NCBI RefSeq assembly: GCF_007830255.1
Contig: NZ_VLKG01000013.1
Span: forward strand, 1-64,000
Direction: 5' to 3'
DNA from: Azomonas agilis
Lineage (GTDB): Bacteria; Pseudomonadota; Gammaproteobacteria; Pseudomonadales; Pseudomonadaceae
DNA: 64,000 nt
A program made the position numbers and the translations under genes. Shown in pieces: positions 18,028 to 47,874 of the stretch; the stretch's first letter is position 1, and each line of letters begins with the position of its first letter. The notes under the pieces were generated by a model. The model saw only the letters and a list, made by a program, of their open reading frames with translations. It searched no databases and had not been told where the DNA came from.

Positions 18028-18512
18028 ATCTAATTACCTTGAAACTATGTTGAAAGACAGCCCACAGGTTAGGGCTGGGGACTGTTGCAGCAGGTAAGAG
18101 AAGTCGAGCGATGAAGCGGATCTGAAGATCTACCGCACCAGGTCACGATTCAACAGCGACCTATGCAAACAGTGAGGACACTCTACGCTAAGTTTGAAGG
18201 AAAAGCCAACCCCTTGGATAAGGTTCCAGGCACCAAATACAAAGTTTCATAAACCCAGTACATCTCGGTGCAATGTACTTGCCAATACAGATCGGGGCTT
18301 TGTAGTAACCTAGGGGCAAGACCGTAGGTAATATGGTTTTTATAACTTATAAGAGACAGCATAAAATATTGCTGAGTAGACCAAAAACGCGTTTTTGGAA
18401 AGTACAATACTGAATACCTTTATACAATTATTTTTTATCGCAGACGCGGTGGCTCTGTGCCGTTCCTCCCAGTCGAGTTATGCTCGGCCCAAAATCTTAA
18501 AATGCCTTGGTT
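18028..18512. other. Intergenic region with cold-shock leader and Crp-like gene promoter
   Basis: These 485 bases lie between the divergent cold-shock gene and the Crp/Fnr gene. The part next to the cold-shock gene is its probable leader, with a hairpin at 18058-18077. The middle (about 18180-18440) is AT-rich. A 74-codon open frame there has no ribosome-binding site or recognisable sequence, so I treat it as non-coding. Confidence 0.5.
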
Positions 18513-29573: not shown

Positions 29574-29830
29574 CAGAACGCGTGCTGATAAGGGTTGTGA
29601 AAAAGCGCACGGCTGGCTCTGTGGTTTATCAATCAAGCACGAACACAACACGAAGTACGGCAGAAAACAGCACCAAGGTAGTGGTTGTCTGCGGCCATTG
29701 ACCGATGCCGTTCATGCGCTGGGTTGTCCAGAATAATTGTTACCGTTCAGCTCGTTTTATCTCCCGCTAGGTTTATAGTTGTTGGATAGGTTGGGTGTGT
29801 TGAGGCAGTACTTCATGCGTGGGGGCACAG

Positions 29831-32011
29831 ATGCAGCTTCGGTCAATACAACAAAAAATAGCGGTTGCGGGTGGCCTATGTCTGGTGGTGGCCATCGGAT
29901 TGCTGATTGCCTTCGGTGTTTACTCCAACACCAACAGCCAAGCTTTGGTGGTGGCACGGGTCAGTAGTCAAGTTGAGAAAGACAGTTTACAAAGCCTACA
30001 AAATTTAGGCGGGCGCTACGCCGGTGAAATTCGCGCGCGTTTTGATGTGGCTTTAGATGCCGCGCGCACTCTGGCGCAGACCTTTGCCGTTTCCAAAATG
30101 GCGGCTCCAGAAAGTGGGGATCTGCGTTTAGGGCGTTCGCAGATTAACGCGGTGTTGTTAAACGTGCTGCGCAGCAATCCCGACTTTAACGGCACCTATT
30201 CCTGTTGGGAGCCGGATGCGGTGGACGGAGCCGACAGCCAGTTTCGTACCGGGCGGGACGGCAACAATGCGGTGACGGGGCGCTTTACTCCCTATTGGAC
30301 GCGCGGAGCTGATGGCCATATCGCGGTGCAACCCTTGGTGGAGTACGACACCCGCGATACCCACCCTAACGGCGTACTGAAAGGCGGCTGGTACATCGGC
30401 CCGCAAGAAACCCGCAAAGAGAGCGTGCTGGGGCCTTTGCCTTACATCGTGCAGGGTAAGCCGGTGTGGCTGGCGACCCTATCGGTGCCCATTATTGCCG
30501 GAGGGCGTTTTTTAGGGGTGGCCGGTACCGATTACAACCTGAATTTTGTGCAACGCCTCAGTGAGGAAGTCTCTCAGCAACTCTTTCAGGGCCAAGGTGC
30601 AGTGAGCATCCTGAGCGATCAAGGCTTAATCATTGCCGACAGTCGCCAGCCGCAACTGATTGGCCAGCCCTTCAGCCGCCTACAGACGGCGGATGCGGAG
30701 CGAGGGTTAAAGGCGGTGCAGGCTGGAGAATCTTTAGCCCGCATTACTTCAGATGGACAGGTCGAGGTATTTTCACCCATTGTTCTGGGACGCACGGGTA
30801 AGCCCTGGTCGGTGTTGCTGCGTTTGCACAAGGATGTAGTTTTACAAGAGGCGCAAGTCTTGGCTAGGGAAATGAGCCAGCATAGCCAATCCAGTTTGGT
30901 GTTGCAGATTCTTTCCGGGGTCGTAGTAGCTTTACTGGCCTCGGCGGTGCTCTGGTGGTTAGCGCGTTCCTTGGCCGATCCTATTCGTCGGGCGGCGCTC
31001 TTGGCAGGCTCTATTCAGCGCGGTGATTTTTCCGGGCGTTTGCGGCATGCCTCGGTGGATGAGGTGGGGCTGTTGTCAGCCAGTTTGGATCGCATGGCCG
31101 AAAGTCTTGAAGCCCAAGCCCTGTTGGCTGAGCGGATTTCTCAGGGCGATCTGAATCTGGAGGTCAAGCTGGCCTCGGATCAGGATCAGTTGGGGCTGGC
31201 CCTACGACGCATGGTGGATAACCTGAATCGGTTGGTGGCGCAGGTGCAAGGCGGTGCGGGCCAGATCACCACTAAAGCTTCCGAAGTGCGGCATTTGAGC
31301 GAGGAGCTGGCCCTGGGGGCTACGGGATCGGCCTCGGCAGTGACTCAAATTGGGGCCACCATTCAGCAAATGGCGGCGCAAATCAGCCAAAGCTCAAAAA
31401 ATGCCAGTCGGGCGCGCGATTTGTCCTGTGAGTCCGAACACTTGGCACAAAACGGCAACCGTTTGATGCAGGGCTTGAAGGAGGCCATGCAAGAAATTGA
31501 TCGCTCCGGGCAGGACATCACCCGCATCATCAAAACCATTGAAGAGATCGCCGCCCAGACGAATTTGTTGGCCCTAAACGCCGCTATTGAAGCCGCGCGC
31601 GCCGGTGAGCATGGGCGCGGCTTCGCCGTAGTGGCGGATGAGGTGCGCCATTTAGCGGCGCGCAGTGGGGAAGCGGCTCAGCAAACGGCCTTGCTGATTC
31701 AGACTTCCAGTGAGCGCTCGGTGCGGGGCATGGCGCTAACGGATGAAACGGGACAGGCTCTGGAAAGCATCGTGCAGGGGGCGACTCAGGTTTCGCAACT
31801 GGTGTCGGAGATTGCCGAAGCGGCTCAGCAGCAAGCCTCTGGAATTGAGCAGGTCAGCCAAGCCATTAACCAGATCGACAGCGTTACCCATCAAAACAGC
31901 CGTCATTCCGAGGCTTCAACCCAAGCGGCTCAGGAGCTGACCGGTCAGGCGGAACAGCTCAATGTGCTGGTTGGGCAATTCCGGGTACGGCCTCAGCGCT
32001 ACTCAGCTTAA
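29831..32011 (+). CDS. Methyl-accepting chemotaxis protein with dCache-type sensor
   Basis: This 726-residue chemoreceptor has membrane helix 1 at about 12-32 and a periplasmic sensor at 33-355. It looks like a double Cache domain, since [12 protein letters not shown] and [23 protein letters not shown] are Cache-like. Helix 2 lies at about 357-378, then HAMP (379-431) and the cytoplasmic hairpin with its highly conserved tip [20 protein letters not shown] and [12 protein letters not shown]. There is no obvious C-terminal CheR tether. Its TAA overlaps the stop of the convergent ABC ATPase gene within TTAA (32008-32011). The ligand is unknown; a link to the adjacent importer is speculation. Confidence 0.93.
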
Positions 32012-32778
32012 GCCAAGGCTGTGTTGGGGCTGTGGCTAAAGTCCTGCAAAATATCCTGACGCAGCTGTACTAACTCCAATTGATCGCGGCGGCGCGGGTG
32101 GGGAAGATTGACTTCCACTACGCGCCGAATCCGCCCCGGACGCGGCTCCATCACCACCACCCGATCCCCCAGCAGCACCGCTTCATCCACATCGTGTGTG
32201 ACCAGTACTGTCGTGATGCCTTCGGCCAGCCAGATGCGCGCCAGCTCGTCCTGAAGTTGGGCGCGGGTCAGAGCATCCAGTGCGCCAAAGGGCTCGTCCA
32301 GCAGCAATACCTTGGGCCGGTTGACCAAGCCCCGAGCAATAGCCACCCGTTGACTCATGCCGCCAGACAGCTGCGAGGGCCAAGCTTTAGCAAAGCCACT
32401 CAGGCCGACCAAGGCCAAATGTTCCTGTACCAGCTCATGGCGTTGAGCTTTGCTCAGGGGCGCATTGGCCAGCGCCAGCAGTACGTTGTCCTCCACCGTT
32501 AGCCAAGGGTAGAGGCGGTGGTCCTGAAACACGATACCCCGTGCCAGATCGGTGCCGCGAATGGGCTCGTTCTCCAGCAGTAAGCTACCGCCGGAAGCCT
32601 CTTCCAGCCCCACCAGCAGACGCAGTAGGGTGGATTTACCGCAACCGCTGCCGCCGACGATGCTGACAAATTCCCCTTGCCGAATGTTGAGGTTGATGTC
32701 CTGAAGTACCGGCAGTGGCCCATCGGCAAGGGCGAAGCTTTTGTGGACGCGTTGCAAACTGAGAAAGGCCGCAGTCAT
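32008..32778 (-). CDS. ABC transporter ATPase, nitrate/sulfonate/taurine type
   Basis: This 256-residue ATPase has Walker [10 protein letters not shown], a Q-loop in [15 protein letters not shown], the signature LSGGMSQR, Walker [13 protein letters not shown] and the switch His in [15 protein letters not shown] and the C-terminal RPGRIRR pattern are typical of SsuB/TauB/NrtD-like ATPases. It is the last gene of a minus-strand operon: binding protein, MFS protein, permease, permease, ATPase. The context suggests import of an organosulfur compound. Confidence 0.95.
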
Positions 32779-32794
32779 AAAACATTCCTTAAAA

Positions 32795-33568
32795 TCAGCG
32801 GTGATCGCGCCAACGCAGCAGGCGGCGCTCTAAAGACTGGGCCAGACGATTGAGCAGTAGCCCCACCGCGCCCACCACCATCAGGCCGTACAGCACCTGA
32901 TCCATATGAAAATGCTCGCGGCCATCAATCATGCTGTTACCGATACCGGGCGCGGCGGAGAAGAAGTACTCCGCACCCAAGGTGGCCAGCCACGCATAAA
33001 TCAGCCCCAGATGCAGGCCGGTAAAGAGCGCCGGAGCCGCAGAAGGCAGCACCAAATAGCGCAGCCGTTGCAGGGGTGATAAACGGAGCACTTGGGCGAC
33101 CTCGTACAGCTCGCGGCGTACCGAGCGGATGCCCTCAAAGGTGTTTAGGGCTACGGGGTAGAACACGGCAAGAGCAATAAAGGTCACCTTGGCCGGTTCG
33201 CCAAACCCAAACCATGCCGAGAGCAGGGGAATCCACGCAAACAGGGCGATCTGCTTTAGGGCATGGAAGGTGGGGCCAATCCAATGCTCTGCCTGTCGTG
33301 ACAGGCCCAGCAATCCGCCAAACAAGAGTCCTGCTAAAACCCCGAGGGCAAAGCCATTCAGGTTGCGGATTAGGCTGGCGCTTAAATCCACCCACAGCTC
33401 GCCACTTAAGGCCGCTTTGCTAAAGGCGGATAACACCGCCAGCGGACTGGCCAGCAGTCGAGTGTCTACCCAGTCGAATGCAGTGGAGAGCGTCCAAACC
33501 AGCAATAATGCCAGCGGCAGCACCCAGCCGCGCCAGTCGTAACGGGAAATCAGGGATAAGAGGGCCAT
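32795..33568 (-). CDS. ABC transporter permease 2, SsuC/TauC type
   Basis: This 257-residue membrane subunit has about six helices and the EAA cytoplasmic loop ELYEVAQVLRLSPLQRLRYL, which docks on the ATPase. It differs clearly from the other permease of the operon, so the importer probably uses a heterodimeric channel, whereas the usual sulfonate importers have a single permease gene. It lies 10 bases after permease 1 and 16 bases before the ATPase gene. Confidence 0.93.
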   Translation of the reverse strand: MALLSLISRYDWRGWVLPLALLLVWTLSTAFDWVDTRLLASPLAVLSAFSKAALSGELWVDLSASLIRNLNGFALGVLAGLLFGGLLGLSRQAEHWIGPTFHALKQIALFAWIPLLSAWFGFGEPAKVTFIALAVFYPVALNTFEGIRSVRRELYEVAQVLRLSPLQRLRYLVLPSAAPALFTGLHLGLIYAWLATLGAEYFFSAAPGIGNSMIDGREHFHMDQVLYGLMVVGAVGLLLNRLAQSLERRLLRWRDHR

Positions 33569-33578
33569 CAGTCAGCCC

Positions 33579-34415
33579 TCAAAAGGCAGGACGCTGCCAG
33601 CGTTGCAGGCGCATTTCCACCCACGCCAGCCCTTGATCCAGCAGCAAACCCACCACGCCGATCACCAACATGCCGACAATTACCAAATCCAGCTGGAACA
33701 TCTGCCGTCCGTCCACCATCAGGTAGCCAATGCCTTCGCTGGAGGCCAGCAGCTCTACCGTTACCAGTGCGATCCAACCTTTGGTCAGAGCAAAGCGCAC
33801 GCCGGTAAAGAGGCTGGGCAGAGCGGCGGGCAGAATGACTCGTCGTAGGCGCTGGGCCAGACCCAGCTGGTACACCTGAGCCACTTCCAGATAGCCCTTG
33901 GGAATGTTGCGAATTCCTGCCAGTGCATTCAGGGTGATCGGCACCATTACCGCCTTAGCAATCACCAGATATTTCAGGCTCTCGTCGATGCCTACCAGCA
34001 TCATCAGCAGCGGAATCCAGCCCAGCACCGGTACTTGGCTGATGGCTTGAAAGCTGGGCAGCACATAGGCCTCCAGCGTGCGCGATAGACCCATGCCGAT
34101 GCCGAGCAACAAACCGGCGGCACTGCCGAGGACAAAGCCGATCAGCACCCGCTCTAAACTGATGGACAGCTCGCGCCACAGATCGCCGCTGTGCCACAGC
34201 TGTAGGAGGCTTTCCAGCACTAAGCTTGGGGGCGGCAGAATTTGTGCCGACACCCAGTGCCGATTGACGGCGACTTGCCATAACACCAATAGCAGCGCCG
34301 GAAACACCAAGGCGCTGGCTTTGCTACCGACCCAAAGCAGACTAGGCGCGCTAAAGCGGCTGATGTCCGCCCGTAGTGATAAGGGCCGCCACGAAATTAA
34401 GGGTAAGTTACTCAT
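33579..34415 (-). CDS. ABC transporter permease 1, SsuC/TauC type
   Basis: This permease of about 278 residues has six predicted helices and the EAA loop GYLEVAQVYQLGLAQRLRRV. The ATG at 34415 (MSNLPLISWRPLSL) is chosen because it overlaps the end of the MFS gene by eight bases. A longer in-frame extension upstream is cysteine-rich and lies wholly inside the MFS gene. LLASSEGIGYLMVDGRQMFQ near the C-terminus is characteristic of the taurine/sulfonate/nitrate permease family. Confidence 0.93.
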   Translation of the reverse strand: MSNLPLISWRPLSLRADISRFSAPSLLWVGSKASALVFPALLLVLWQVAVNRHWVSAQILPPPSLVLESLLQLWHSGDLWRELSISLERVLIGFVLGSAAGLLLGIGMGLSRTLEAYVLPSFQAISQVPVLGWIPLLMMLVGIDESLKYLVIAKAVMVPITLNALAGIRNIPKGYLEVAQVYQLGLAQRLRRVILPAALPSLFTGVRFALTKGWIALVTVELLASSEGIGYLMVDGRQMFQLDLVIVGMLVIGVVGLLLDQGLAWVEMRLQRWQRPAF

Positions 34416-35637
34416 CCAAGACTCTCCTGAATACAAAGCGGGTGGGAAGCATCGGGCGCAGGCCATGCAGCGCAAAGACTGCAAACACCGGCACAAAGAA
34501 TAGAAACAGCGGTTGCAGGCCAATCACTCCGCCTAAGGCTGCGCCCAGCAGGCAACCGGCCAGACTGCCAGAGGGGCCAATCAGTACCGCCAAGCCAGCA
34601 ATACGGCCATGCCCTAAGTGGCGGCCATGTTCGGCATAGCGCGATAGGGTGACGACCTGTAACAGCCCCAAACTGATGCCGAGCAGTACCGCACTCAGCC
34701 ACACCAAGGCCGCGTTATCCGTGAGGCCCAGAATCAGCAGTGCTACCAGATTGAGCAGCAAACAGGCCGGACGACTGATTTGGGGGAAGTCCGCCAGTAA
34801 ACGCCCTAGGAAGAACAGCGCCAGAATAAAAGCCAGCCCGTGTACCGTAATCAAACAGGCCGCTTGATGGGCCGACCAGCCCAAGTCCTGTACTGTGATG
34901 GCGACGATAAAAAAGCTGAAAAACTGAGCACTGGCTTGCACGCAGAAATCCAATAGGCCATTGGCCCTTAGCTCAGGCTCTTGGCGCAGCAACCCCAGTT
35001 GCCGTTGCAGCGCCGCTAGGCTCAGGGCTTCTGCCCCCGGACTCTGTGCGGACTGTCCCGGCAACACCTTCCACGCCAGCAGCATGGGGCAGGCGAACAC
35101 CAAACCGATCACGGGCCAACTGCCCGCCGCTCCAAAGGCAGCGAATAGGCTGGCGGCTAAGGGTGGGCCAATCAGCAGAATGCCAATCAGTTGGGCACCG
35201 CGCAGCCAGCCGGTTTGCGAAGGCTTGAGAAAAGCTAACTGCTGCATAAAGACCGCGTTCAGTGCCACTAAACGGCAGGGCATGCACAGTCCGAGCAACA
35301 GGCTCATCAACATCAAGGGCAGGGCCTGCTGTAGTCCGGCCAGTGCTTGACACAACAGCGCTGCCAGTAAGCTGCCAATTAGGTACAGCCGCAGTGGCCC
35401 AAAGCGCTCAATCAGCAGCCCACAGGGTAAACTGGCCAGCAGCAGCCCCATCGTCTGAGCGCCAGCAATCAAGCCCAGCTCCAGCGCCGAGGCATTCAAA
35501 CTCAGGCCATGCAGCGCCAGCCCAATTTTGGCCAGCCCAATCCCGATCCCTGAGAGGCTGCTCAGCAGGACAAAATGCCCTAAAGCCAGTACGGGTGGAG
35601 GAATGGCCTCCGCTTCTGTGAGGGTCATGAGTGTCAC
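34408..35637 (-). CDS. MFS transporter inside the ABC operon
   Basis: This 409-residue major facilitator protein has about 12 membrane helices in two halves joined by a cytoplasmic loop (about residues 200-230). GLLIERFGPLRLYLIGSLLA after helix 2 is the degenerate family loop. The start is probably the GTG at 35637, overlapping the binding-protein stop by four bases (GTGA); ATG at 35628 is the alternative. A secondary carrier placed between the binding protein and permeases of an ABC importer is unusual. It might export a product or a toxic by-product, or move the same compound. This is inference from context. Confidence 0.92.
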   Translation of the reverse strand: MTLMTLTEAEAIPPPVLALGHFVLLSSLSGIGIGLAKIGLALHGLSLNASALELGLIAGAQTMGLLLASLPCGLLIERFGPLRLYLIGSLLAALLCQALAGLQQALPLMLMSLLLGLCMPCRLVALNAVFMQQLAFLKPSQTGWLRGAQLIGILLIGPPLAASLFAAFGAAGSWPVIGLVFACPMLLAWKVLPGQSAQSPGAEALSLAALQRQLGLLRQEPELRANGLLDFCVQASAQFFSFFIVAITVQDLGWSAHQAACLITVHGLAFILALFFLGRLLADFPQISRPACLLLNLVALLILGLTDNAALVWLSAVLLGISLGLLQVVTLSRYAEHGRHLGHGRIAGLAVLIGPSGSLAGCLLGAALGGVIGLQPLFLFFVPVFAVFALHGLRPMLPTRFVFRRVLDE

Positions 35638-36707
35638 AGGGCTTTTTTGGGCTGATTATTGGCATCGTATTCTGGCCATAGGTTTTTGAAGCCCAGCCGC
35701 TCGAGGGCGTTGTTGACGTATTTAGGCTCAACCCAATCCTTCACCTCTACATCACCGCGCAGTAATCCCAACTCGCGGGATTCGGTCACTGTGGCGCGGT
35801 AACGGTCGATGAAGAACTCATCAATGCGTGGGGAGTAACGTCGGATAAAGGATTGGCCCTCTTGCTCAGCCCGCAGAGATTCAATACGCACCCCAGCGTT
35901 GGCCCAGAGGGCTAAAGCGGCCTCCTCATTCCCTGGCGTTGTGGCCCAGGCGGCGGTTTTCACCAAGGCATCCACTACTTTTTGCACTACGGCTGGGTAT
36001 TTTTGCTCAAAGGCAGCATCCACCAGTACGTGGCCTTGGCGGGTGAATTTAGGACTCTTAGCGCGGGTATCGTAGATGATGCGCGCCACGCCTGCGGCCT
36101 GTAGGTCGAAGGCTTGGGCGGGCATCCAAGCGCCATCAATATCCTTAGAGGCGAGGGCGCTGGACATGGTGGAAAACTCCATATTCACCGTCCGAAAGTC
36201 GCGCTCGCTCAAACCCTCAGCCTTAAGGGTGCGCGCGGTGGCCAGCTGTAAGTTGGTGCCCTTGAATTGGGCGACCTTTTTACCCTTGAGGTCTTCAAGA
36301 GTTTTGGCCGGTGAGTCTGCCGGAACCACCAGATACACTGAGGTCAGCAAAGAGTCAGCCGTAATCAGTTTGGTATTCAGGCCGCCGGCTTTGGCGATGA
36401 CGGCGGGTAAGTCGCCTTGCCATGCAAAATCCAATTGCTTGTTGGCGAGGGCTTCGTTGACCGCTGGGCCTGCGCCTTTAAAGAACACCCAATCGACCCT
36501 GATATTGTCGGCCTTGAGTTCCTCCTCAACGGCTTTGCGTTGGTGGGCGAGGCCGGTAACAGAGCCTGCCGCAAAGGGCGTTCCTCCCTTGCCCACGGTG
36601 GCTACACCAAAACGTATGACTTCCGGTGCATCTGCAGCGCTGGCAAGGGCACACCAGCCGGTGGCAAAAAGGGTAAGTAGGGGGAGCAACACTCTGGATT
36701 TCATCAT
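35634..36707 (-). CDS. ABC substrate-binding protein, aliphatic sulfonate type
   Basis: This periplasmic binding protein of about 357 residues has a signal peptide (MMKSRVLLPLLTLFATGWCA then LASA, cut before ADAPE). The mature part has the SsuA/TauA-like fold: EVIRFGVATVGKG, VNEALANKQLDFAWQGDLPA, DLKGKKVAQFKGTNLQLATA and SKDIDGAWMPAQAFDLQAAG. The start at 36707 has AGGA six bases upstream; 36704 is equally possible. It is first in its operon, behind a -24/-12 promoter. Sulfonate-like ligands are inferred from the family and from the SfnR-like regulator nearby. Confidence 0.92.
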   Translation of the reverse strand: MMKSRVLLPLLTLFATGWCALASAADAPEVIRFGVATVGKGGTPFAAGSVTGLAHQRKAVEEELKADNIRVDWVFFKGAGPAVNEALANKQLDFAWQGDLPAVIAKAGGLNTKLITADSLLTSVYLVVPADSPAKTLEDLKGKKVAQFKGTNLQLATARTLKAEGLSERDFRTVNMEFSTMSSALASKDIDGAWMPAQAFDLQAAGVARIIYDTRAKSPKFTRQGHVLVDAAFEQKYPAVVQKVVDALVKTAAWATTPGNEEAALALWANAGVRIESLRAEQEGQSFIRRYSPRIDEFFIDRYRATVTESRELGLLRGDVEVKDWVEPKYVNNALERLGFKNLWPEYDANNQPKKAL

Positions 36708-36766
36708 CAGGCTTCCTGTGGCCTTGTGAAACGACATCCCGGATCAATCCGGCGTTATTCCCAGAG

Positions 36767-36782
36767 TGCAGGGGCTGTGCCA
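36767..36782 (-). promoter_or_regulatory. Sigma-54 promoter of the importer operon
   Basis: On the minus strand TGGCACAGCCCCTGCA carries the invariant GG (36781-36780) and GC (36769-36768) separated by exactly ten bases. TGGCAC matches the -24 consensus fully, and CTGCA is one base from TTGCA. It lies about 60 bases before the binding-protein start codon. Confidence 0.8.
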
Positions 36783-36890
36783 TGCCGTTAAATCAAAAAG
36801 CCATATATAAATAGCCCGATAGGAGCCGCCTTATCTGATGGCTTTGGGCGGCCACAGGGGTTGCTCAGTCCTGTGTTTAGGGCATGGACG

Positions 36891-36940
36891 ACTGTGCGCA
36901 GGTGTTGAAATTCGCACAGATTGCGCGCCCCAGTGCGGGA
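36891..36940. promoter_or_regulatory. Candidate enhancer (activator-binding) site between two sigma-54 promoters
   Basis: CTGTGCG (36892-36898) and CGCACAG (36913-36919) form a perfect dyad with a 14-base spacer. AGTGCGGGA follows at 36932-36940. The dyad lies roughly 95-140 bases from both divergent -24/-12 promoters, the normal distance for a sigma-54 activator. ACTGTGC and AGTGCGGGA recur upstream of the dioxygenase gene at 46957. Confidence 0.5.
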
Positions 36941-37014
36941 GAAGCCACAATGGCCCTTGCTCCAGAGCAGTAAATCTTTCAGGCTGAAGCGGCCTAACCG
37001 GCTGCTTGAAAGGC

Positions 37015-37030
37015 TGGCATGCTTTCTGCC
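37015..37030 (+). promoter_or_regulatory. Sigma-54 promoter of the GST-aldo/keto reductase operon
   Basis: TGGCATGCTTTCTGCC has GG (37016-37017) and GC (37028-37029) separated by ten bases. It lies about 50 bases before the GST start codon. The -24 half reads TGGCATG against consensus TGGCACG. Confidence 0.75.
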
Positions 37031-37078
37031 TAGTCTCGGGCGGCCCTTTCTTTTTCTACATACGGCCCGAGGTTTTTG

Positions 37079-37702
37079 ATGAGCACGCTCTATATCGCCC
37101 CCAGTGCCTGTTCCTTAGCCAGCCATGCGTTGGTGTACGAGCTGGGTTTGCCGATTCAGATTGAAAAAGTAGCGGTACGTACCCCGGACTCTCCCATCCA
37201 CGCGGTCAACCCCTTGGGCCGCGTACCGGCGCTGGTGCTGGAAGATGGCAGCCTGCTGACCGAAAACACGGCGCTGTTGCCCTATCTGGCCGATCTCAAG
37301 CCAGAGGCGGGCCTGTTTGCGCCCGTCGGTAGCGCGGAACGGGCACAGATTCAGCGTTGGTTGGGCTATTTGGCCACCGAAATTCATGTTGGTTGCTTCC
37401 GGCCTTTGCGTCGCCCGGAGCGCTATTCCGATGAGGTGAGCACTCACCCCGGCATCCAAGCCAAAGCCCGCCAGCAACTGCACCAAGCTTTACTGCATGT
37501 AGAACAGCATTTACAGGGCAAAACTTGGTTGGTCGCTGAACGTTACACCATTGCTGACCTTTACCTGAGCGTGGTTGCTGGTTGGTTGCTGCCTTTGGGT
37601 GAGCCCTTTACCGAGCTGACCGCCATCAATCGTCTGCGTGATAGCGTGCGGGCTCGTCCAGCGGTGCAAAAAGCCTTGAAGCTGGAGGGCCTGATCCCAT
37701 GA
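37079..37702 (+). CDS. Glutathione S-transferase (beta-class-like)
   Basis: This 207-residue protein has an N-terminal thioredoxin-like domain, LYIAPSACSLASHALVYELG. Its Cys11 sits where bacterial beta-class GSTs have the active Cys10. NPLGRVPALVLEDGSLLTEN is the glutathione-binding loop, and the C-terminal domain is all-helical (WLVAERYTIADLYLSVVAGW). The ATG at 37079 follows GAGG by six bases. It overlaps the aldo/keto reductase gene by four bases (ATGA), so the two products probably work together. With the sulfur-starvation context, glutathione-dependent cleavage of a sulfur compound is possible but not shown. Confidence 0.92.
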   Translation: MSTLYIAPSACSLASHALVYELGLPIQIEKVAVRTPDSPIHAVNPLGRVPALVLEDGSLLTENTALLPYLADLKPEAGLFAPVGSAERAQIQRWLGYLATEIHVGCFRPLRRPERYSDEVSTHPGIQAKARQQLHQALLHVEQHLQGKTWLVAERYTIADLYLSVVAGWLLPLGEPFTELTAINRLRDSVRARPAVQKALKLEGLIP

Positions 37703-38739
37703 TCTACCGTCCTCTGGGTCGTACCGACTTGCAGGTCAGCGCCTTAGCTTTGGGCAGCATGACTTGGGGTGAGCAAAATACTGAGGCTGAGGGTTTTGAG
37801 CAGATCCGCCGGGCTCAGGCCGCCGGTATCAACTTTATTGATACTGCCGAGATGTATCCGGTGCCGCCGAAAGGCGAAACTGCGGGCGCTACGGAAACAG
37901 TGATCGGTAATTACTTTAAACGTCATGGTGGCCGCAGTGATTGGATCATCGCCACCAAGGCCGCGCCGCCCGGTAACGGTATTACCCATATTCGCGGCGG
38001 AACAAACCATTTTGATCGCGCCAATTTGACGGCTGCGCTGGAGGCTAGCCTTAAGCGTTTGCAGACCGATTACATCGACCTCTATCAGCTGCATTGGCCG
38101 GATCGCTTCACCAACTACTTTGGCCAGTTGGGTTATCAACACGACCCTCATGCCCATATCACTCCCATCGAGGACACCTTAGCGGTGCTGGATGATCTGG
38201 TCAAAAGCGGCAAGATTCGCCATGTGGGGCTGTCCAACGAAACTCCTTGGGGGGTGCATCGCTTCCTGCATTTGGCGGAAACACGAGGCTGGCCGCGTCC
38301 GGTGTCGATTCAAAATCCCTACAATTTGCTCAATCGTAGCTTTGAGGTGGGGTTGGCGGAGATCGCCATCCGTGAGCAGATCGGTTTGCTGGCCTATTCA
38401 CCGTTGGCCTTCGGTTTGCTGTCCGGTAAATACGAAAACGGCGCGCAACCGCCTAAAGGCCGCTTGACCCTGTTTGAGCGCTTTCAGCGTTACAACAACC
38501 CACAGGCCCGCAAAGCCGCCTCGGCCTACATTCAATTGGCCCAAGCCCACGGCCTTGATCCTGCGCAGGTCGCCTTGGCCTACGTCACCACGCGGCCCTT
38601 TGTCACCAGCAACATCATCGGTGCGACCACGCTGGAGCAACTGGACAGCAACATAGCCAGCCTAGAACTAAAGCTGAGCGATGAGCTGTTAGCGGCGATT
38701 GAGCAAATCCATATCAGTCAACCGAATCCCGCGCCCTGA
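37699..38739 (+). CDS. Tas-like aldo/keto reductase
   Basis: This 346-residue (alpha/beta)8 NADPH-dependent reductase resembles E. coli Tas throughout: [27 protein letters not shown] (catalytic Asp and Tyr), [11 protein letters not shown] (Lys), [12 protein letters not shown] (His) and [34 protein letters not shown] is the cofactor-binding end. It is translationally coupled to the GST gene. Its last 22 bases overlap the 3' end of the convergent activator gene. The natural substrate of Tas-type enzymes is not established. Confidence 0.93.
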
Positions 38740-39809
38740 GTGGGTTTAAGGGTATGAGTAGGGCGAGCGAGGGGCAGTAGGTTGTAGCGCTTCATCAGGG
38801 TACGCAGGGCGTGGCGGCTGATACCGAGGCGGTCGGCACTGTGAACCTGATTGTAGTGGTGGCGGCGTAGGGTGGTTTCCAGCAGCAGACCTTCCCAGCG
38901 CGCCAACAGCCCCTCGTCGCCACGCTCCAAGAGTTCGCTGAGCTGGTGCTGAATGTTTTGCCACAGGGGGTCGATGCTCGGTTCGGCGCTGCGTCGGTTT
39001 TGAGGCTGTCCGCGCAGTTGCAAATGCCCGCCTTCAATGCGCTCACCCTGAGCCAGCAGTGCGGCGGACAGTAGAACGTTCTCCAGCTCGCGAATATTGC
39101 CCGGCCAGCGGTGGCTTAATAAACGTTCAACGGCCTCAGGGCTGAGGCTCGGTGTAGTACGGCCTTGCTCTTGGGCAAACTGGCGCAAAAAATGTTGGGC
39201 TAGGGGCAGAATGTCGTCGGGCCGATCGCGCAGGGGCGGAATGGCAAGGGTGACGATGTTCAGGCGGTAGAACAAATCCTCCCGAAAACGCCCACCGCTG
39301 ATGGCGTTGTGCAAATCCACATGGGTGGCCGTGACGATGCGCATATCAATGGGAATGGGTTTGCGCCCGCCAACCCGCACCACTTCTCGCTCTTGCAATA
39401 CCCGCAGCAGTTTGACTTGCAAGTTCAGCGGTAAATCGCCGATTTCATCCAAAAATAAAGTGCCGCCGTTGGCGGCTTCAAACCAACCTTCGCGGCGGCT
39501 GTGGGCTCCGGTAAAGGCTCCGGCTTCGTGGCCAAAGAATTCACTTTCGGCCAGATTTTCGTTAATGGCCGCCCCGTTGACGGCCACAAAGGGCCCTTTG
39601 CGCCCGCTGCGTTGGTGCAGGTGGCGGGCGAGTAATTCCTTGCCGGTGCCGGTTTCACCCTGAATCAGCACGGGAACCGAACTGTGAGCAACCCGTTCGG
39701 CCTGTTCCAATAGTTGTTGGGAGCGTGCATCGGCAAACAGTAGGGCTTTGGCGCGAATGTCGGCACGGCTGTTTTCATGGGCAGCCAGCGTCAGGACGGG
39801 ACCGTTCAT
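38718..39809 (-). CDS. SfnR-like sigma-54-dependent transcription activator
   Basis: This 363-residue enhancer-binding protein has only about 30 residues before the AAA+ domain, so it has no receiver or ligand domain. Walker A is GETGTGKE (51-58), the sigma-54 contact loop is GAFTGA (97-102) and Walker B is [11 protein letters not shown] Fis-type helix-turn-helix is at the C-terminus ([19 protein letters not shown]). Length and N-terminus ([20 protein letters not shown]) closely resemble Pseudomonas SfnR, which activates sulfone use under sulfate limitation. SfnR lacks a sensor and is controlled at the level of expression. The ATG at 39809 is chosen by this comparison. It probably drives the two nearby -24/-12 promoters. 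Confidence 0.9.
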
Positions 39810-39867
39810 CGTGTGGCCTCGGATCGAGTGAGAGAGCATGCGGCAGGACTCTAACGGGGCTTTGTTA

Positions 39868-39942: not shown

Positions 39943-40866
39943 TCACCAAAGGGGCAAGCGCTTGGTCGGGCCATCGGTGCTTTTTCGCAGAAAATCGCGC
40001 ATGTATTCCACAAAAAAACTCACTTTAGCCGATAAGTTTAGGCGCTCCAGATAAACGGCGTAAATATCGGCAGGCGGGGTTTGATAATCGGATAACACCT
40101 CGACTAAACGCCCACTGCGTAGGTATTTAGCTAAGTCCCATTCGGCGCGCATCAGGATGCCGTGCCCTTCCAAAGCCCAATTCAGGGCCACCTCACCGTC
40201 GTTGGTACTCAGAGCACCGCGTACTTTCACCGACTCGCCGTACTCCCCTTTGGTCAATTTCCACGTGCCAAAGGCCACATCGTTTTGGCGCAAAACAATG
40301 CATTGATGCTGGGCTAATTCTTGGGGGGTTTCAGGTGTACCAAAGGCTCTGAGGTAATTGGGAGAGGCGCATAACAGGCGGCGATTGGCGGCGATTTTGC
40401 GCGCAACAAGGCGCGAATCGGGTAAATCTCCAAAGCGAATTCCCACATCAATGGCATCGTCGGGCAAGTTAATCGGGCGATCGGTGAGCTGTAGCTGTAC
40501 CTCAATTTCAGGATGCCGTTTGGCAAAGCCTGAAATAGCCGGGCCAACGTAGGTGCGGCCAAACCCCAAGGGCGCATTCACCCGCAATAAGCCCTTGGGC
40601 TCGGCGCGGCTGCTGGAGATTTGATGCTCCATTTCTTCGATTTCTTTCAGGATGCGCTGGGCATTAGCCAGATATACCTCGCCCTCATTGGTCAGGCTGA
40701 TGCGCCGCGTAGTGCGGTTGAGCAGCCGCACGCCCAAGCGTTGTTCCAGTTGACTCAGACGCTTGGAAACCGCCGGAGGGGTCAAATTCAGCTCGCGGGC
40801 GGTGGCCGCCAGACTGCCTAGACGGATCAGTAAGGCAAAAAAGGCCAGCTCGGAAACTGGGTTCAT
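39943..40866 (-). CDS. LysR-family regulator of the tartrate cluster (TtdR-like)
   Basis: This 307-residue LysR regulator has the N-terminal winged helix FFALLIRLGSLAATARELNL followed by TPPAVSKRLSQLEQRLGVRL. The effector domain (about 90-300) includes LNWALEGHGILMRAEWDLAKYL, which parallels E. coli TtdR (WALEGKGIMLRSEWDV). GGAG is six bases before the ATG at 40866. It diverges from the DctA-like gene across 182 bases and so is the likely activator of the tartrate genes. TtdR activates ttd genes with tartrate in E. coli; the same role here is inference. Confidence 0.9.
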   Translation of the reverse strand: MNPVSELAFFALLIRLGSLAATARELNLTPPAVSKRLSQLEQRLGVRLLNRTTRRISLTNEGEVYLANAQRILKEIEEMEHQISSSRAEPKGLLRVNAPLGFGRTYVGPAISGFAKRHPEIEVQLQLTDRPINLPDDAIDVGIRFGDLPDSRLVARKIAANRRLLCASPNYLRAFGTPETPQELAQHQCIVLRQNDVAFGTWKLTKGEYGESVKVRGALSTNDGEVALNWALEGHGILMRAEWDLAKYLRSGRLVEVLSDYQTPPADIYAVYLERLNLSAKVSFFVEYMRDFLRKSTDGPTKRLPLW

Positions 40867-41048
40867 TGGTAACTCCAATTCACTAATGTTTTAAATTTGA
40901 ATCGATTATACGAGTTCAGAAAAGCAGTAATCTTGCCAGCATACAAACCCGCCGTGTTTTTAGGTTTGTGCTTTGGCTGGTTGTGCGCGTTCAACAGCGT
41001 ACGAACAGTCTTTTTTCCTACCGTTAATAAAAATAACTCGGAGGATCA

Positions 41049-42389
41049 ATGATCGGGAATTTCCTTGGAAAACTTTATGTTCAAGTGCTGATTGGTGTGG
41101 TGGTCGGCATTTTGCTGGGCATTTACACACCAGAAATTGGCACTGAATTAAAACCCTTGGGCGATGCCTTCATTAGGCTCATTAAAATGGTCTTTGCGCC
41201 CATCATTTTCGCAACCGTAGTCTTAGGTATTGCGCGAATGGAGAGCATGAAGGAGCTCGGGCATGTGGGTGGTAAGGCACTGATTTATTTTGAAGTGCTG
41301 TCCACGCTGGCCTTAGCCTTGGGTCTGATTGTGGTCAATTATTTCGAGCCCGGCGTGGGCATGAATATTGATCCTGCTACTTTAGATACTCAAAGTATCG
41401 CCACCTATACCTCAGCGGCTGCTTCAGGTAATAGCACGTCCTTTGTTGACTTCCTGATGAAGTTAATTCCAGCCAGTGTTGCCGACGCCTTTGCCAAGAA
41501 TGAGATTCTGCCGATTCTGGTGTTCTCCACCTTCTTTGGTGTAGCGCTGGCGCAGATGGGGCCGCAAGCCAAGCCGGTGGTGGATTTTCTGGATAGCTTC
41601 TCCCACGGCATGTTCAAGATCGTTGGCATGATCATGCGGGTTGCACCGCTGGCTGCGTGCGGTGCGATGGCCTTTACCGTGGGTAAATACGGTTTGGGTT
41701 CCATTGTGTCGCTGGGCAAGTTAATGGCCTGCATGTACATCACCTGCTTCCTGTTTGTGGTGGTAGTACTGGGTAGTATTTGCCGAATCTGCGGTTTTAG
41801 TCTGTGGAAGTTCCTCAAGTACATCCGCGAAGAACTGTTCACCGTACTGGGAACCAGCTCCTCTGAATCCGTTGTTCCGCAACTGATGAACAAGCTGGAG
41901 AAGGTGGGGGTTTCAAAACCCGTTGTGGGTTTGGTGATTCCATCGGGATTGACCTTCAACCCGGATGGCCAGTGCATTTACTACACCATGGCCGCCATCT
42001 TTATTGCTCAAGCCACCAATACGCCACTGACCTTCACGGAAGAGTTAATTGTGCTGGGCGTTTTGATGCTGACCTCCAAGGGTTCTGCAGGCGTGACCGG
42101 CTCAGGCTTTATCACCCTCGCGGCCACCTTAGCCTCAATGGACAAGATTCCGGTAGCCGGCATCGTACTGCTGTTGGGCGTGGATCGCTTTATGTCTGAA
42201 GCGCGCTCCATCACTAACACCATTGGTAATGCGGTAGCCACTATGGCCATCGCGCGTTGGGTCGGTGCTTTGGACCAAGAGCACATGCACAAAGTCTTGG
42301 ATGGCAAGCAAGAGTCTCTAAAAACGACAACAACTACGGCGACTCAAGGCACTTTTGATGAGTCTGCTGCTCAGGTTAAGTCCGTATAA
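41049..42389 (+). CDS. DctA-like C4-dicarboxylate carrier (DAACS family)
   Basis: This 446-residue inner-membrane symporter closely resembles E. coli Dct[30 protein letters not shown], the re-entrant loop [11 protein letters not shown] (267-277), [13 protein letters not shown] and [13 protein letters not shown]. The family motif NMDGT/NLDGT in helix 7 reads NPDGQ (304-308), an unusual change at the cation/substrate site. GGAGG precedes the ATG by four bases. It is followed by ttdA and ttdB, so L-tartrate or a related hydroxy-dicarboxylate is the probable substrate. Confidence 0.92.
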
Positions 42390-42452
42390 ATCGGCACTAA
42401 TTTCCTGAGATCAACCGTTATTGGGTCGCGTGAGTGGCCCGAGGAGATAATC

Positions 42453-43352
42453 GTGGATAAAGAACAGGCCGTACAATCACTGACTGACGTGATGGCTAAA
42501 TTCACCGCCTATATCGGCAAGCGTTTACCTACCGATATTAAAGGCAAATTGGCTGAGCTTCAGGCCGCTGAAACCAACTCATTGGCGAAAGAAGTCTATG
42601 CGTCCATGTCCAGCAACCAAGAGGCTGCGGATCGTTTAGACCGCCCCAGCTGTCAGGATACCGGAGTCATTCAATACTTCATCAGCGCCGGTGCTAAGTT
42701 TCCCCTATTGGGCGAGTTGGAAGACATTCTGCGCGAGGCGACCTTAGAGGCCACACGCAAAGGTCCACTGCGCCACAATGCGGTGGAAACCTTCGATGAG
42801 AAGAACACCGGCACCAACACCGGCTCTCGGGTGCCTTGGTTGGACTGGGAAATCATCCCCGACAGCGACAGCGCCATTATCGACGTTTATATGGCCGGTG
42901 GCGGTTGCACCTTACCGGGCTCGGCCAAGGTATTGATGCCGGGACAAGGCTATGAAGGGGTCACCGAGTTTGTCTTTGATGTGATTACTTCGCGTGGGGT
43001 GAATGCCTGTCCTCCGTTGCTGGTCGGAGTGGGCGTTTCCACCTCGGTAGAAACGGCAGCGCGTTTGTCCAAGCGTGCCATCCTGCGCCCGATTGACTCC
43101 AAGCATCCGAATGCCAACGCCGCCAAGATGGAAGAGCTGCTGGAAGAGGGGCTGAACGAAATCGGTATTGGCCCACAGGGACTCAGCGGTAAAGCCAGCG
43201 TGATGGGCGTGAACATTGAATCCTCCGCCCGCCATCCGTCCACCATTGGGGTTGCGGTTTCGACCGGCTGCTGGGCCCATCGTCGTGGAAAAATCCGTAT
43301 TAACGCCGACCTTTCCTACGATGTTCTCTCCCACGAAGGAGTTGCACTGTGA
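42453..43352 (+). CDS. ttdA: L(+)-tartrate dehydratase alpha subunit
   Basis: TtdA and TtdB form an oxygen-sensitive [4Fe-4S] dehydratase that converts L-tartrate to oxaloacetate. The 299 residues align with E. coli TtdA throughout. Likely cluster ligands are Cys67 (RPSCQDTG), Cys186 (VNACPP) and Cys273 ([10 protein letters not shown]). [34 protein letters not shown] and [20 protein letters not shown] are nearly identical to TtdA. The start is GTG at 42453 with GAGGAG six bases upstream. It overlaps ttdB by four bases. Class I fumarase activity is a possible alternative, but similarity favours tartrate. Confidence 0.93.
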
Positions 43353-43957
43353 AAAAGATTCTGACTACTCCGATCAAAGATGAAGATCTGGAATCCCTGA
43401 ACGTGGGCGATGTGGTGTATCTGACCGGACGTTTGGTGACCTGCCGCGATGTGGCCCACCGCCGACTGATCGAGTTAAACCGCGAGCTGCCGGTGAATTT
43501 AGAAGGCGGCGCTATTTTCCACGCCGGCCCCATCGTGCGCAAAAAGGACGATGGCCAGTTTGAAATGGTGTCCATCGGCCCAACCACCAGTATGCGCATG
43601 GAAAAGTTCGAGAAGCAGTTTATCGAGCGTACCGGCGTTAAGTTGATTGTGGGTAAGGGCGGCATGGGGCCAGAAACGGCTGAAGGTTGCCAAACCCATA
43701 AAGCGGTGCATGCCGTATTCCCCGGTGGTTGTGCGGTTTTGGCGGCCACTCAGGTGGAAGAGATTGAAGGCGCGGAATGGCAAGACTTGGGCATGCCGGA
43801 AACCCTGTGGGTGAACCGAGTACGGGAGTTTGGCCCGCTGATTATTTCCATTGATACCAAGGGTAATAATCTGTTTGAGCAAAACAAGGCCCGCTTTAAT
43901 GCCAAGAAAGGCCCGGTGATTGAGCGCATTAACAGCCAAGTGAAGTTTATTAAATAA
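43349..43957 (+). CDS. ttdB: L(+)-tartrate dehydratase beta subunit
   Basis: This 202-residue partner of TtdA matches E. coli TtdB (201 residues): [81 protein letters not shown] and [17 protein letters not shown]. The start is GTG within the GTGA overlap with ttdA, which implies coupled synthesis of the two subunits. A strong hairpin follows 13 bases after the stop. Confidence 0.94.
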
Positions 43958-43970
43958 ACTCATCTTATGG

Positions 43971-43994
43971 GCAGGTGGCTTTGATGCCACCTGC
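43971..43994 (+). terminator. Perfect 9-base hairpin after ttdB
   Basis: GCAGGTGGC (43971-43979) pairs with GCCACCTGC (43986-43994) over a six-base loop. No T run follows, so it may be an attenuating or mRNA-stabilising element between ttdB and the chemoreceptor gene. Confidence 0.55.
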
Positions 43995-44046
43995 ATTCAT
44001 GCTGCCCCATTTAGTCGGTTTTATTATCCTTTTAGGATGATAATTA

Positions 44047-45678
44047 ATGCTTAATAAAATAAGTGTAAAATCTGGTTTTGTTTCCATCTTATTGCTTTTT
44101 ACCCTACTTGTTATTTTGGTTGGATACCTCTCTTGGAGTAATGCGTTATCCGCACGATCAGACTTTATACAGTTAGAGAATTTATTTTCTAAGCAACTGG
44201 ATAAAATTAATAATGCCGCCATTTGGCTTACCAGAGCCAGCTCGACAACCCATTTAACGCTTATTGAGCGAGAGTCTGGGCGTATCAGCAACCTAGAAAG
44301 CAGTATTCTGGCAGTCTGGGATCGACTGAATGCAGCGACTCAGTTAATGACCGAGGTTAAGCGCTCTATATCCAGTGACTCCGATCTTTACGCAGAAGCC
44401 CAAAAGCTGGAATTAAGTTTTACTCGGTATAAAGAGTTAATTTTAAAGCAACTGGATGTTATAAAAAGTGGCAGTTTGGCGAACTATATTAATGTAAATG
44501 AAGAAACGAAAGTAGCCAGTAAAGCCTACAGTGCTGCCCGGCAGGTGTTAACAGATTTATTGAACGTAAAAACTAATACATTGATCATACAGGCTGATAA
44601 TAAAGCCGAGCGTGCAAAACATAGTTTGTTTTTAATAGCGCTATTCGCGGTTATTTTAATATATGTGTGTGGTTTTTTTGTGAATGGCACTATAGTCACA
44701 CCATTATCTGAAGTAGGTGCTTGTTTTAAAGAAATGGCTGAAGGAAATCTAACAGGTGTCGTAAAGCCAAAGGGTATGAAGGAAGTTAATGAGCTGTTTA
44801 GCTTATTGTTTAAGATGAAAGATCAACAGCGTAACCTTCTTACTCAGATAATAGATACCGTTAATTTGTTAGAAAATTCGGCAAAGAATTTGGATGATAC
44901 TCTGGCTAAAAGCAATAAAAATATTCAGAATCAGTACCAAGAGTTGGAGCAAGCGGCTACAGCGGTTAATGAAATGTCAACCTCTATCGAGGATATAGCC
45001 AGGCATACCGTACATGCATCAAGTTCTGCAGTATTAGTGAATGACATATCTAACGAAAGCCGCCAAAAAATCCAAGAAACCCTAGTTGAAATAAATAAGA
45101 TGGGGTTTGAGGTTAAAAGTACAGAGCAGGTCATTGATCATCTGGCGGCTGAAGCACAGGGAGTCGGAAAGGTTCTAGAAGTTATTCGAGCCATATCAGA
45201 GCAAATAAACTTATTAGCTTTAAATGCGGCTATTGAAGCTGCTAGAGCTGGAGAGGCGGGGCGAGGATTTGCCGTGGTTGCTGATGAGGTTCGAACCTTA
45301 GCCTATAGAACCAGTCAGTCTACGCAAGAAATTGAGCACATAGTCGTTAGGATTCAAGAGAGTGCTGCAAAGGCGGTAGCCTCAGTAAACGGGGCAAATG
45401 ACCATGTGTTAGTGACCGTAGCAGCCACTAAGAGTACGGGTGATTTATTAGAGCGCTTATTTGGCAATATTGCTGAAATCACGGATGGAAGTATCGTGAT
45501 TGCCGAAGCGGCACAGCAGCAAGCTGAAGTATCGCGATTAATAGATAAAACCATCGTAAATATTAGCAGTTTGGCATCAGAGTCCAGTGCGGGCTCTCAG
45601 GATGTGGGTAATTTAAGTGCAACGCTTGTGAGTACAATACAAAAATTAAGTGCTGTTTCAGGCAGGTTTAAAATTTGA
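44047..45678 (+). CDS. Methyl-accepting chemotaxis protein with four-helix-bundle sensor
   Basis: This 543-residue receptor has membrane helix 1 at 11-29 and a helical periplasmic domain of about 160 residues (31-190, 4HB type). Helix 2 lies at 193-212, then HAMP and the signalling hairpin with tip [20 protein letters not shown] and [17 protein letters not shown]. Base composition is clearly more AT-rich than ttdAB upstream, which hints at separate acquisition. Its place between ttdB and the oxaloacetate decarboxylase gene suggests sensing of tartrate or C4-dicarboxylates, by context only. It has its own terminator. Confidence 0.93.
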
Positions 45679-45735
45679 TCTCGTTTTGTGTGAGCCAAAG
45701 AATGCATCACTATAGGGGTTTTGCATTCTTATTTT

Positions 45736-45767
45736 CCCTAGCTTGTTAATCAAGCTAGGGATTTTTT
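45736..45767 (+). terminator. Rho-independent terminator of the chemoreceptor gene
   Basis: CCCTAGCTTG (45736-45745) and CAAGCTAGGG (45751-45760) form a perfect ten-base stem with a five-base loop, followed by ATTTTTT. Confidence 0.92.
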
Positions 45768-45774
45768 ATCAACA

Positions 45775-45800
45775 TAAGCTATTAGCTTACCGCGTAAGCT
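45775..45800. promoter_or_regulatory. Alternating TAAGCT/AGCTTA repeats upstream of the decarboxylase gene
   Basis: TAAGCT-ATT-AGCTTA-CCGCG-TAAGCT gives two overlapping dyads within 26 bases, 29 bases before the start codon at 45829. The position fits an operator for a repressor or activator. No known box is matched. Confidence 0.4.
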
Positions 45801-45828
45801 GGAGCGCTTATTTATCTGTGGTGCTTTT

Positions 45829-46756: not shown

Positions 46757-46785
46757 ACTGTGCTATATCGCGCAGTAGTGCGGGA
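46757..46785. promoter_or_regulatory. Candidate enhancer site of the dioxygenase gene
   Basis: ACTGTGC (46757-46763) is followed by the imperfect inverted partner CGCGCAG (46769-46775) and AGTGCGGGA (46777-46785). The first and last elements also occur at 36891-36897 and 36932-36940 in the importer/GST control region. Here they lie about 75-100 bases upstream of a -24/-12 promoter. Confidence 0.45.
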
Positions 46786-46857: not shown

Positions 46858-46873
46858 TGGCATGCTTCCTGCT
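46858..46873 (+). promoter_or_regulatory. Sigma-54 promoter of the dioxygenase gene
   Basis: TGGCATGCTTCCTGCT has GG (46859-46860) and GC (46871-46872) separated by ten bases and is nearly identical to the GST promoter at 37015. It lies about 85 bases before the start codon. Confidence 0.75.
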
Positions 46874-46956: not shown

Positions 46957-47874
46957 ATGTCATTGGAAATTCGTCCCATCACTGGCCGCATTGGTGCTGA
47001 AATCAGCGGTGTTCGCCTTACCGATTTAACGGAAGCTCAGTTTGCTGAGTTGCAACAGGCGATCCTCAAATACAAAGCCGTGTTTCTGCACGATCAGCAC
47101 CTGAGCGATGCTGAGCAAGAAACCGTATCCCGCCGCTTTGGCGATTTGGTGGTACACCCCACCATTGCTACCGCTGAAAATACCCAAGGCATCTTTGATG
47201 TGGACTCCGAGCGCTCCCGGGCTAACTCTTGGCACAGCGACATCACCTTTGTGGTCGACTACCCCAAAATCACCATTTTGCGCGGTGAAGTGATTCCTGA
47301 AGCCGGTGGCGATACGGTGTTTGCTAACACTGTTAGCGCCTATCAAGACTTGCCTAAGCCGCTGCAAGTGCTGGCGGATAGCCTGTGGACACTGCACACC
47401 AACGATTACGACTACGCCGCACCCAAGCAAATCGAAGCCATTGCGACCCACCGTTTCCGCAATGAGTTCACCTCCACTCTGTATGAGACTGAGCACCCCT
47501 TGGTGCGCGTTCACCCAGAAACCGGCGAGAAGGCCCTCGTACTGGGGCATTTTGTGAAGAAGATTCTCGGTGTGAGCAGTCACGACTCTCAGCAGCTGCT
47601 GCGGATTTTCAACCACTACGTTACTCGTCTGGAAAACACCATTCGCTGGCGTTGGACTCCGGGTGATGTAGCGCTCTGGGATAACCGCGCCACCCAGCAT
47701 ATTGCGGTAGACGACTACGGCAGCGCGCGCCGCATCGTGCGCCGTACTACGGTGATTGGTGAAATTCCGGTATCGGTCAGCGGTGAAAGCAGCCGTGCGA
47801 TCAAACCCAGTCCCGACAGTCGTATTCCTCATTCTGAGGCGGACAAGCAGCAACAGTTGAAGAAGGCCAGCTAA
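46957..47874 (+). CDS. TauD/AtsK-type 2-oxoglutarate-dependent dioxygenase
   Basis: This 305-residue Fe(II)/2-oxoglutarate dioxygenase would oxidise an organosulfur compound and release sulfite or sulfate. The metal triad is His93-x-Asp95 (SWHSDITF) and His248 (RATQHIAVDDY). The 2-oxoglutarate-binding Arg lies in ARRIVRRTT (259-264). Similarity to Pseudomonas alkylsulfatase AtsK is closer than to taurine dioxygenase in GRIGAEISGVRL, ANSWHSDITFV, TSTLYETEHPLVRVHPETGE and WRWTPGDVALWDNRATQH. AGGAG lies at 46945-46949. It has its own -24/-12 promoter and terminator. Alkyl sulfate esters are the likely substrate, taurine or other sulfonates the alternative. Confidence 0.92.
   Translation: MSLEIRPITGRIGAEISGVRLTDLTEAQFAELQQAILKYKAVFLHDQHLSDAEQETVSRRFGDLVVHPTIATAENTQGIFDVDSERSRANSWHSDITFVVDYPKITILRGEVIPEAGGDTVFANTVSAYQDLPKPLQVLADSLWTLHTNDYDYAAPKQIEAIATHRFRNEFTSTLYETEHPLVRVHPETGEKALVLGHFVKKILGVSSHDSQQLLRIFNHYVTRLENTIRWRWTPGDVALWDNRATQHIAVDDYGSARRIVRRTTVIGEIPVSVSGESSRAIKPSPDSRIPHSEADKQQQLKKAS

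Follow-up and report, generated by a model that had tools for sequence, protein, structure and literature searches.

The stretch of Azomonas agilis DNA analysed here (contig NZ_VLKG01000013.1, positions 1 to 64,000; hereafter the window) contains a five-gene operon for an ATP-binding cassette (ABC) importer with two different permeases and, embedded among its genes, a transporter of the major facilitator superfamily (MFS). Judged from sequence, the closest known system would be the AtsRBC sulfate-ester importer, and the operon appears to be a split-permease, MFS-bearing variant of the sulfate-ester importer of Pseudomonas. This mostly explains the operon, whereas any role for the MFS protein is tentative.

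All five genes are on the minus strand, arranged head to tail. The first encodes an AtsR-like substrate-binding protein (SBP; 35634..36707) of the SsuA/NMT1 periplasmic family, and is followed by the MFS gene (34408..35637), permease 1 (P1; 33579..34415), permease 2 (P2; 32795..33568) and the ATPase gene (32008..32778). The coordinates of the open reading frames (ORFs) bear out both the order and the junctions given in the earlier note: the first two junctions overlap by 4 and 8 bases, and the last two are gaps of 10 and 16 bases. The MFS gene may start at GTG 35637 or at ATG 35628, the latter turning the 4-base overlap with the SBP gene into a 5-base gap; in the Azotobacter loci L038 and L068 the called MFS start lies about 8 bases past the SBP end. 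The SBP matches Pfam NMT1 (E-value 1.5e-14; 54.8 bits at a cut-off of 20.5) and the SsuA structure 3uif (8.1e-45), the MFS protein matches MFS_1 (1.6e-22), both permeases match BPD_transp_1, and the ATPase matches ABC_tran (5e-33) and has Walker A, an LSGGM signature and Walker B. No NCBIfam model reached its cut-off for any of the five proteins among the matches listed (for the ATPase, the best 25 of 188); the nearest models for the SBP and the permeases were SsuA, SsuC, SaoP, TauC and NtrB. A sigma-70 scan of 31900-37150 yielded a single promoter-like site, at the SBP start (shuffled sequences, mean 1.7).

P1 and P2 are 44% identical and match, respectively, the first and the second half of a fused ats-type permease. 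In a tree of 91 rows, first- and second-position permeases form two clades (support 95/88 and 99/95). We took 34 operons for permease pairing, of which one (L044) is cut, and each of the 33 readable operons has one member of either clade. Six operons (L071, L072, L075, L076, L079, L086) hold two pairs, the third and fourth permease genes likewise dividing into a P1 and a P2; ten other third-position permease genes are of a distant kind. Two genes fused in order are classically taken as a sign that their products pair physically, and P1-P2 was found in that order as a single open frame in eight ats-type loci. These came from a search of 119 genomes of the family with P2, in which eight loci were chosen for their long frames together with four others, and hence prove that the fusion exists but do not give its rate; P1 and P2 are separate genes in L202, L159, L204 and L203, although the frame of L159 had seemed long. 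In a second tree, where support for the deepest P1 fork is lower (89/72), each fused half groups inside its own clade (P1, 99/91; P2, 98/95). Azotobacter vinelandii CA has both forms, the operon (L068) and a fused-permease cluster (L201). Since the clades are present one to one, doubled as pairs and fused in eight loci, these data support P1 and P2 acting as a heterodimer, as had been suggested in the earlier note. They are two old paralogue lines. A recent duplication of SsuC was also considered and was rejected on the permease tree and the fusions.

The six double-pair operons have one ATPase of this kind per run, and five of them hold several SBPs; possibly, several substrates share one ATPase there. 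In Acinetobacter (L092-L100, L103-L105) a third, distant permease and a second ATPase follow MFS-P1-P2, in most cases along with a small molybdopterin-binding-like gene.

Several known systems were compared with the operon. SsuABC and TauABC have a single permease gene. They resemble the window operon in their NMT1-type SBP, BPD_transp_1 permease and ABC_tran ATPase, but the operon has two paralogous permeases, for which the SsuC and TauC model scores fall well short of the cut-off. The ats/sft cluster of Pseudomonas, with AtsRBC and AtsK, shares with the window an SsuA-like SBP, the order and clades of P1 and P2, and an AtsK-type dioxygenase nearby, and the ATPases of the fused ats-type loci are 54-59% identical to that of the window. 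The order given in the part of PMC3596284 consulted is atsACBR-sftR-atsK-sftP, with atsB as a single permease gene; the fused loci were assigned to this cluster by gene content and that part of the paper rather than by comparison with a named atsB sequence. In contrast to AtsRBC, with its one fused permease gene, the window has two permease ORFs separated by 10 bases and an additional MFS gene. Its likely regulator is a sigma-54 activator encoded beside it, whereas the ats cluster has the LysR-type SftR (PMC3596284, same part), and no arylsulfatase was recognised beside the operon. In this respect the earlier note needs correction, as two unlike permease domains are not new among such importers: ats-type loci carry the two within a single gene, and MsmEFGH, which imports methanesulfonate, has a pair of permease components (MsmF and MsmH) in one operon, as described in the excerpt of PMC4433239 from which this likeness is drawn. 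MsmEFGH differs in its link to a methanesulfonate monooxygenase, and that excerpt names no MFS protein. Pfam PF00884 was found in the genome only in G000:C3 and at 20037-20909 of the window; by eye, the sulfatase-fold ORF of the window (19878-21629, minus strand) resembles a phosphoethanolamine transferase more than an arylsulfatase.

The operon is a recurring gene set and not a peculiarity of the window's genome. The window and 40 loci from a scan of named genomes (Azotobacter, Pseudomonas, Chitinibacteraceae, Azoarcus, Methylotenera, Acinetobacter, Sorangium, Macromonas and others) make up 41 loci, in which genes were called by codon scoring because calls by ORF length are poor at high G+C. 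P1, P2 and the ATPase are found near the MFS gene, on its strand and between 5 genes before and 11 genes after it, in 33 of these loci, so the MFS gene is a genuine repeated member of the set. Contig ends truncate three more loci (L073, L081, L085), and five lack P1, P2 and the ATPase on the MFS strand (four from Sorangium, one from Macromonas). In a partly overlapping sample of genomes of the family, the MFS protein was matched at 1e-40 or below in 33 of 198 (own genome included). Loci were read for 30 of these 33, again with the own one, and two permeases lie within 1.5 kb of the MFS gene in 27 of the 29 others. The remaining two are L010, with one permease and the ATPase (its wider locus, L046, reads SBP-P1-P2-ATPase-MFS), and L008, where the ATPase alone is visible and the locus is cut by a contig end. 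None of 273 other sampled genomes of the class had the MFS at 1e-35, a sample different from that of the named-genome scan, which located it in several other families. A plasmid origin was considered and rejected, with no tblastn match of the MFS protein in 72,556 plasmid records at 1e-20. Searches of open-licence papers turned up none on these genes as a set.

The operon is probably under sigma-54 control, judging from promoter matches and a neighbouring activator gene. The best-scoring −24/−12 promoter-like site in the 64 kb on both strands, TGGCACAGCCCCTGCA (36767..36782, minus strand), precedes the start codon (ATG) of the SBP gene by approximately 60 bases. The fourth best, TGGCATGCTTTCTGCC (37015..37030, plus strand), is found about 49 bases upstream of ATG 37079 of a divergent glutathione S-transferase-like (GST) gene, and the third best, TGGCATGCTTCCTGCT (46858..46873, plus strand), about 84 bases upstream of the ATG of an AtsK-like gene; both are paired with a palindrome. 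The second-best site, at 18284 (minus strand), has no gene start close downstream. Across loci, where up to 400 bases upstream were scored and 3 of the 41 operons with short upstream DNA were dropped, a site scoring at least 12 precedes 30 of 38 operons compared with 20 of 167 control transcription units from the same loci, some of which may share the regulon. The upstream DNA of close relatives contains paired CTG-N12-CAG palindromes, mostly 31 bases apart. A symmetrised matrix was built from ten such sites, excluding the window; its best match in the 64 kb, CTGTGCTATATCGCGCAG (46758..46775), is at the AtsK promoter, and its second best (36902..36919) lies between the two divergent promoters at the operon. 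Possible second palindromes in the window score low (7.4 and 5.5). In total there are four pairs of palindrome and promoter in the window, three of them at the operon, the GST promoter and the AtsK-like gene; the unusual feature is their scores and places, not their number. A fourth, weaker pair of activator site and sigma-54 site occurs at 18284 (minus strand).

The activator gene (38718..39812, minus strand), 2 kb upstream of the operon, encodes an AAA+ enhancer-binding protein (EBP) with Sigma54_activat (2.8e-68), a Fis-type helix-turn-helix (HTH_8) and GAFTGA; no N-terminal sensor domain was found by Pfam at 1e-3. Its relatives (71-75% identical) are encoded directly ahead of the SBP gene in L041, L042, L066 and L067 and a few kb ahead of it in L040 and L069. 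We take the EBP to be SfnR-like in build. In Pseudomonas, SfnR acts with sigma-54 on an organosulfur regulon. What the window shares with that regulon is an activator in which no sensor domain was recognised, and sigma-54-like sites ahead of organosulfur genes.

The AtsK-like gene (46957..47874, plus strand) encodes a predicted Fe(II)/2-oxoglutarate alkylsulfatase of the TauD family. It is closer to AtsK (1oih, 7.6e-101) than to taurine dioxygenase (1gqw, 1.9e-52), the HxD...H iron site and the 2-oxoglutarate arginine are conserved in the alignment to 1oih and by motif, and its next relatives in the own genome are at most 36% identical. Enzymes of the AtsK type convert alkyl sulfates to sulfate and aldehyde, according to the part of PMC3675115 consulted. 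Six other genomes of the family (G055, G044, G009, G060, G025, G033) have the MFS at 60-64% identity, and all six encode an AtsK-like relative (71-83%), which lies 4-15 kb from the MFS gene in five and on a different contig in G033. The AtsK-like gene occurs without this MFS in G010 and in four genomes of genus g6; in G058 and G082, AtsK-SBP-P1-P2-ATPase form one same-strand run that lacks the MFS gene, and each of the eight fused loci has an AtsK-like gene (51-56%) in the stretch read.

The divergent pair consists of the GST gene (37076..37702, plus strand; Pfam GST; start TTG 37076 or ATG 37079) and an aldo-keto reductase (AKR) gene (37699..38739, plus strand; NF007912 over cut-off). In L161, L162, L163 and L164, relatives of both (GST 68-71%, AKR 86-90%) cluster with the AtsK-like gene, the EBP gene, a second TauD-type gene and an NtaA/DmoA-type monooxygenase gene. 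No close copy of this monooxygenase was found in the window's genome (best 48%), and it was excluded from the system here. Because of this, and because the GST promoter equals the L161 monooxygenase promoter at 15 of 16 bases, we infer that the monooxygenase and the second TauD-type gene have been lost from the window locus, with the promoter left to the GST-AKR pair.

These data are combined in a proposal that we consider slightly favoured as a whole: an AtsRBC-type heterodimeric importer in a sigma-54 regulon, AtsK-like oxidation, and export by the MFS protein. On sulfur limitation the EBP would bind the intergenic palindromes and activate the importer operon together with the divergently oriented GST and AKR genes and, at a distance of 10 kb, the AtsK-like gene. 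The ABC part, a P1-P2 heterodimer on two copies of one ATPase, would import organosulfur anions, most likely alkyl sulfate esters and possibly sulfonates too. The AtsK-like enzyme would oxidise the imported ester to sulfate and an aldehyde, which the AKR may reduce, and the co-directional MFS protein would most likely export the sulfur-free product or another by-product. The sequence itself shows which genes are present, how the permeases pair and fuse, the linkage, and the promoter and activator-site matches; substrate, heterodimer assembly, regulation and the AKR role we infer, and the direction of MFS transport more weakly. A more specific idea, that heterodimeric ABC import, a co-regulated oxygenase that takes the sulfur and an MFS protein that ejects the carbon skeleton form an import-strip-export unit in one operon, is tentative and rather doubtful. 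If true, uptake and disposal would be matched gene for gene. Sulfur scavengers keep the sulfur alone from many organic compounds, and the fate of the remainder is seldom asked about; an MFS gene recurring inside an importer operon is a concrete, deletable candidate for the disposal step, and the split and fused forms of one permease pair are a natural pointer to the heterodimer.

Several observations weigh against this proposal. The SBP scores below the SsuA_fam cut-off (141.3 vs 163.5 bits), so that any ligand assigned to it is tentative. The AtsK-like gene in the window is 10 kb from the operon, with unrelated genes between, and P1 and P2 are separate in the AtsK-linked L159 and L204. Many MFS-bearing operons are accompanied by flavin monooxygenases, which would make a sulfonate, sulfone or sulfinate a possible ancestral substrate. 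The eight AtsK-linked fused loci, G058 and G082 showed no relative of the MFS in the stretches read, hence the MFS has no fixed tie to alkyl sulfates as such. In three of the four Sorangium loci neither permeases nor a monooxygenase were found with the MFS gene, and a galactonate symporter (6e9n) is among the structural matches of the MFS protein. As regards regulation, the sigma-54 matrix is approximate, 8 of 38 operons have no sigma-54 site of score 12, and 20 Markov sequences gave a mean of 0.7 pairs of palindrome and promoter, one of the 20 reaching four. Finally, 31900-37150 contains 11 terminator-like sites vs 5.9 (standard deviation 2.4) in shuffles; five of them are on the minus strand inside the MFS or P1 gene, with stems of 5-8 pairs, so there may be partial attenuation within the five-gene run.

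The MFS protein has no second match in its own genome at 0.001. VMAT2 and NorA are exporters, and they took the first ranks in a Foldseek search with its AlphaFold2 model (mean confidence, pLDDT, 89.6), with MdfA at rank 12 and the symporter 6e9n at rank 14. Predicted helices 4 and 5 hold Arg122 and Arg146, which do not vary among 37 MFS sequences and may bear on proton or anion handling. In a genome of the same genus (G010, locus L202) SBP-P1-P2-ATPase are found at 68-79% identity without the MFS gene, with a sigma-54 site and two palindromes; its permeases nest, with moderate support, among those of MFS-bearing operons, which points to loss of the MFS gene there. Because of this operon, and because five loci have the MFS gene without a same-strand permease pair, the MFS protein appears to be an accessory, dispensable in evolution. 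In Macromonas (L101) the MFS gene comes after TauD-type and NtaA/DmoA-type genes, with an SBP-permease pair encoded on the opposite strand at the edge of the contig. At the Sorangium locus L083 the MFS gene precedes an NtaA/DmoA-type monooxygenase gene and has no permease pair on its strand; with a monooxygenase beside the MFS gene in only one of four Sorangium loci, export becomes slightly less likely. Export of the sulfur-stripped product is nonetheless the preferred, weakly supported reading.

The MFS protein could instead be a second importer for the same or a related organosulfur compound, e.g., an uncharged or larger form, the ABC part taking the anion. It might be the sole transporter in the four Sorangium loci, where P1, P2 and the ATPase were not found near a gene that has a sigma-54-like site (12.0-14.7) ahead of it and a gene of binding-protein cluster c6 after it, and the symporter match is consistent with this. 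However, the first-ranked folds are VMAT2 and NorA, although a fold does not fix direction, and a second importer would presumably be redundant next to an ABC importer of the same operon. We regard a second importer as unlikely; tentatively, an accessory of organosulfur scavenging that exports is more likely than one that imports.

It is less probable still that the MFS gene is a bystander or separately transcribed. It is absent from L202, G058, G082 and the eight fused loci, and follows the ATPase gene in L044 and L046, and there are terminator-like sites inside it and P1, but P1, P2 and the ATPase are near it in 33 of 41 loci from several families, no sigma-70-like site lies ahead of it, and its junctions are of a few bases. 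The weakest alternative, that P1 and P2 are homodimeric permeases of two importers sharing one ATPase after an SsuC-type duplication, would suit the several SBPs of some clusters and the EAA-type loop kept in both window permeases, but is improbable given the one-to-one clades (33 of 33), doubling only as pairs (six operons) and P1-P2 fusion (eight ats-type loci). This loop was seen with a looser motif pattern, to which 2 of 52 permease rows had no match; a stricter regular expression for the EAA motif had no matches.

Around the operon, a methyl-accepting chemotaxis receptor gene (29819-32011, plus strand), whose dCache match is weak and does not reach cut-off, is convergent with the ATPase gene and overlaps it by 4 bases. 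The region 39943-46695 contains ORFs that by eye are LysR-like, dicarboxylate-symporter-like, lyase-like (two), chemoreceptor-like and phosphoenolpyruvate mutase/isocitrate lyase-like, and they interrupt an island that is intact in Azotobacter.

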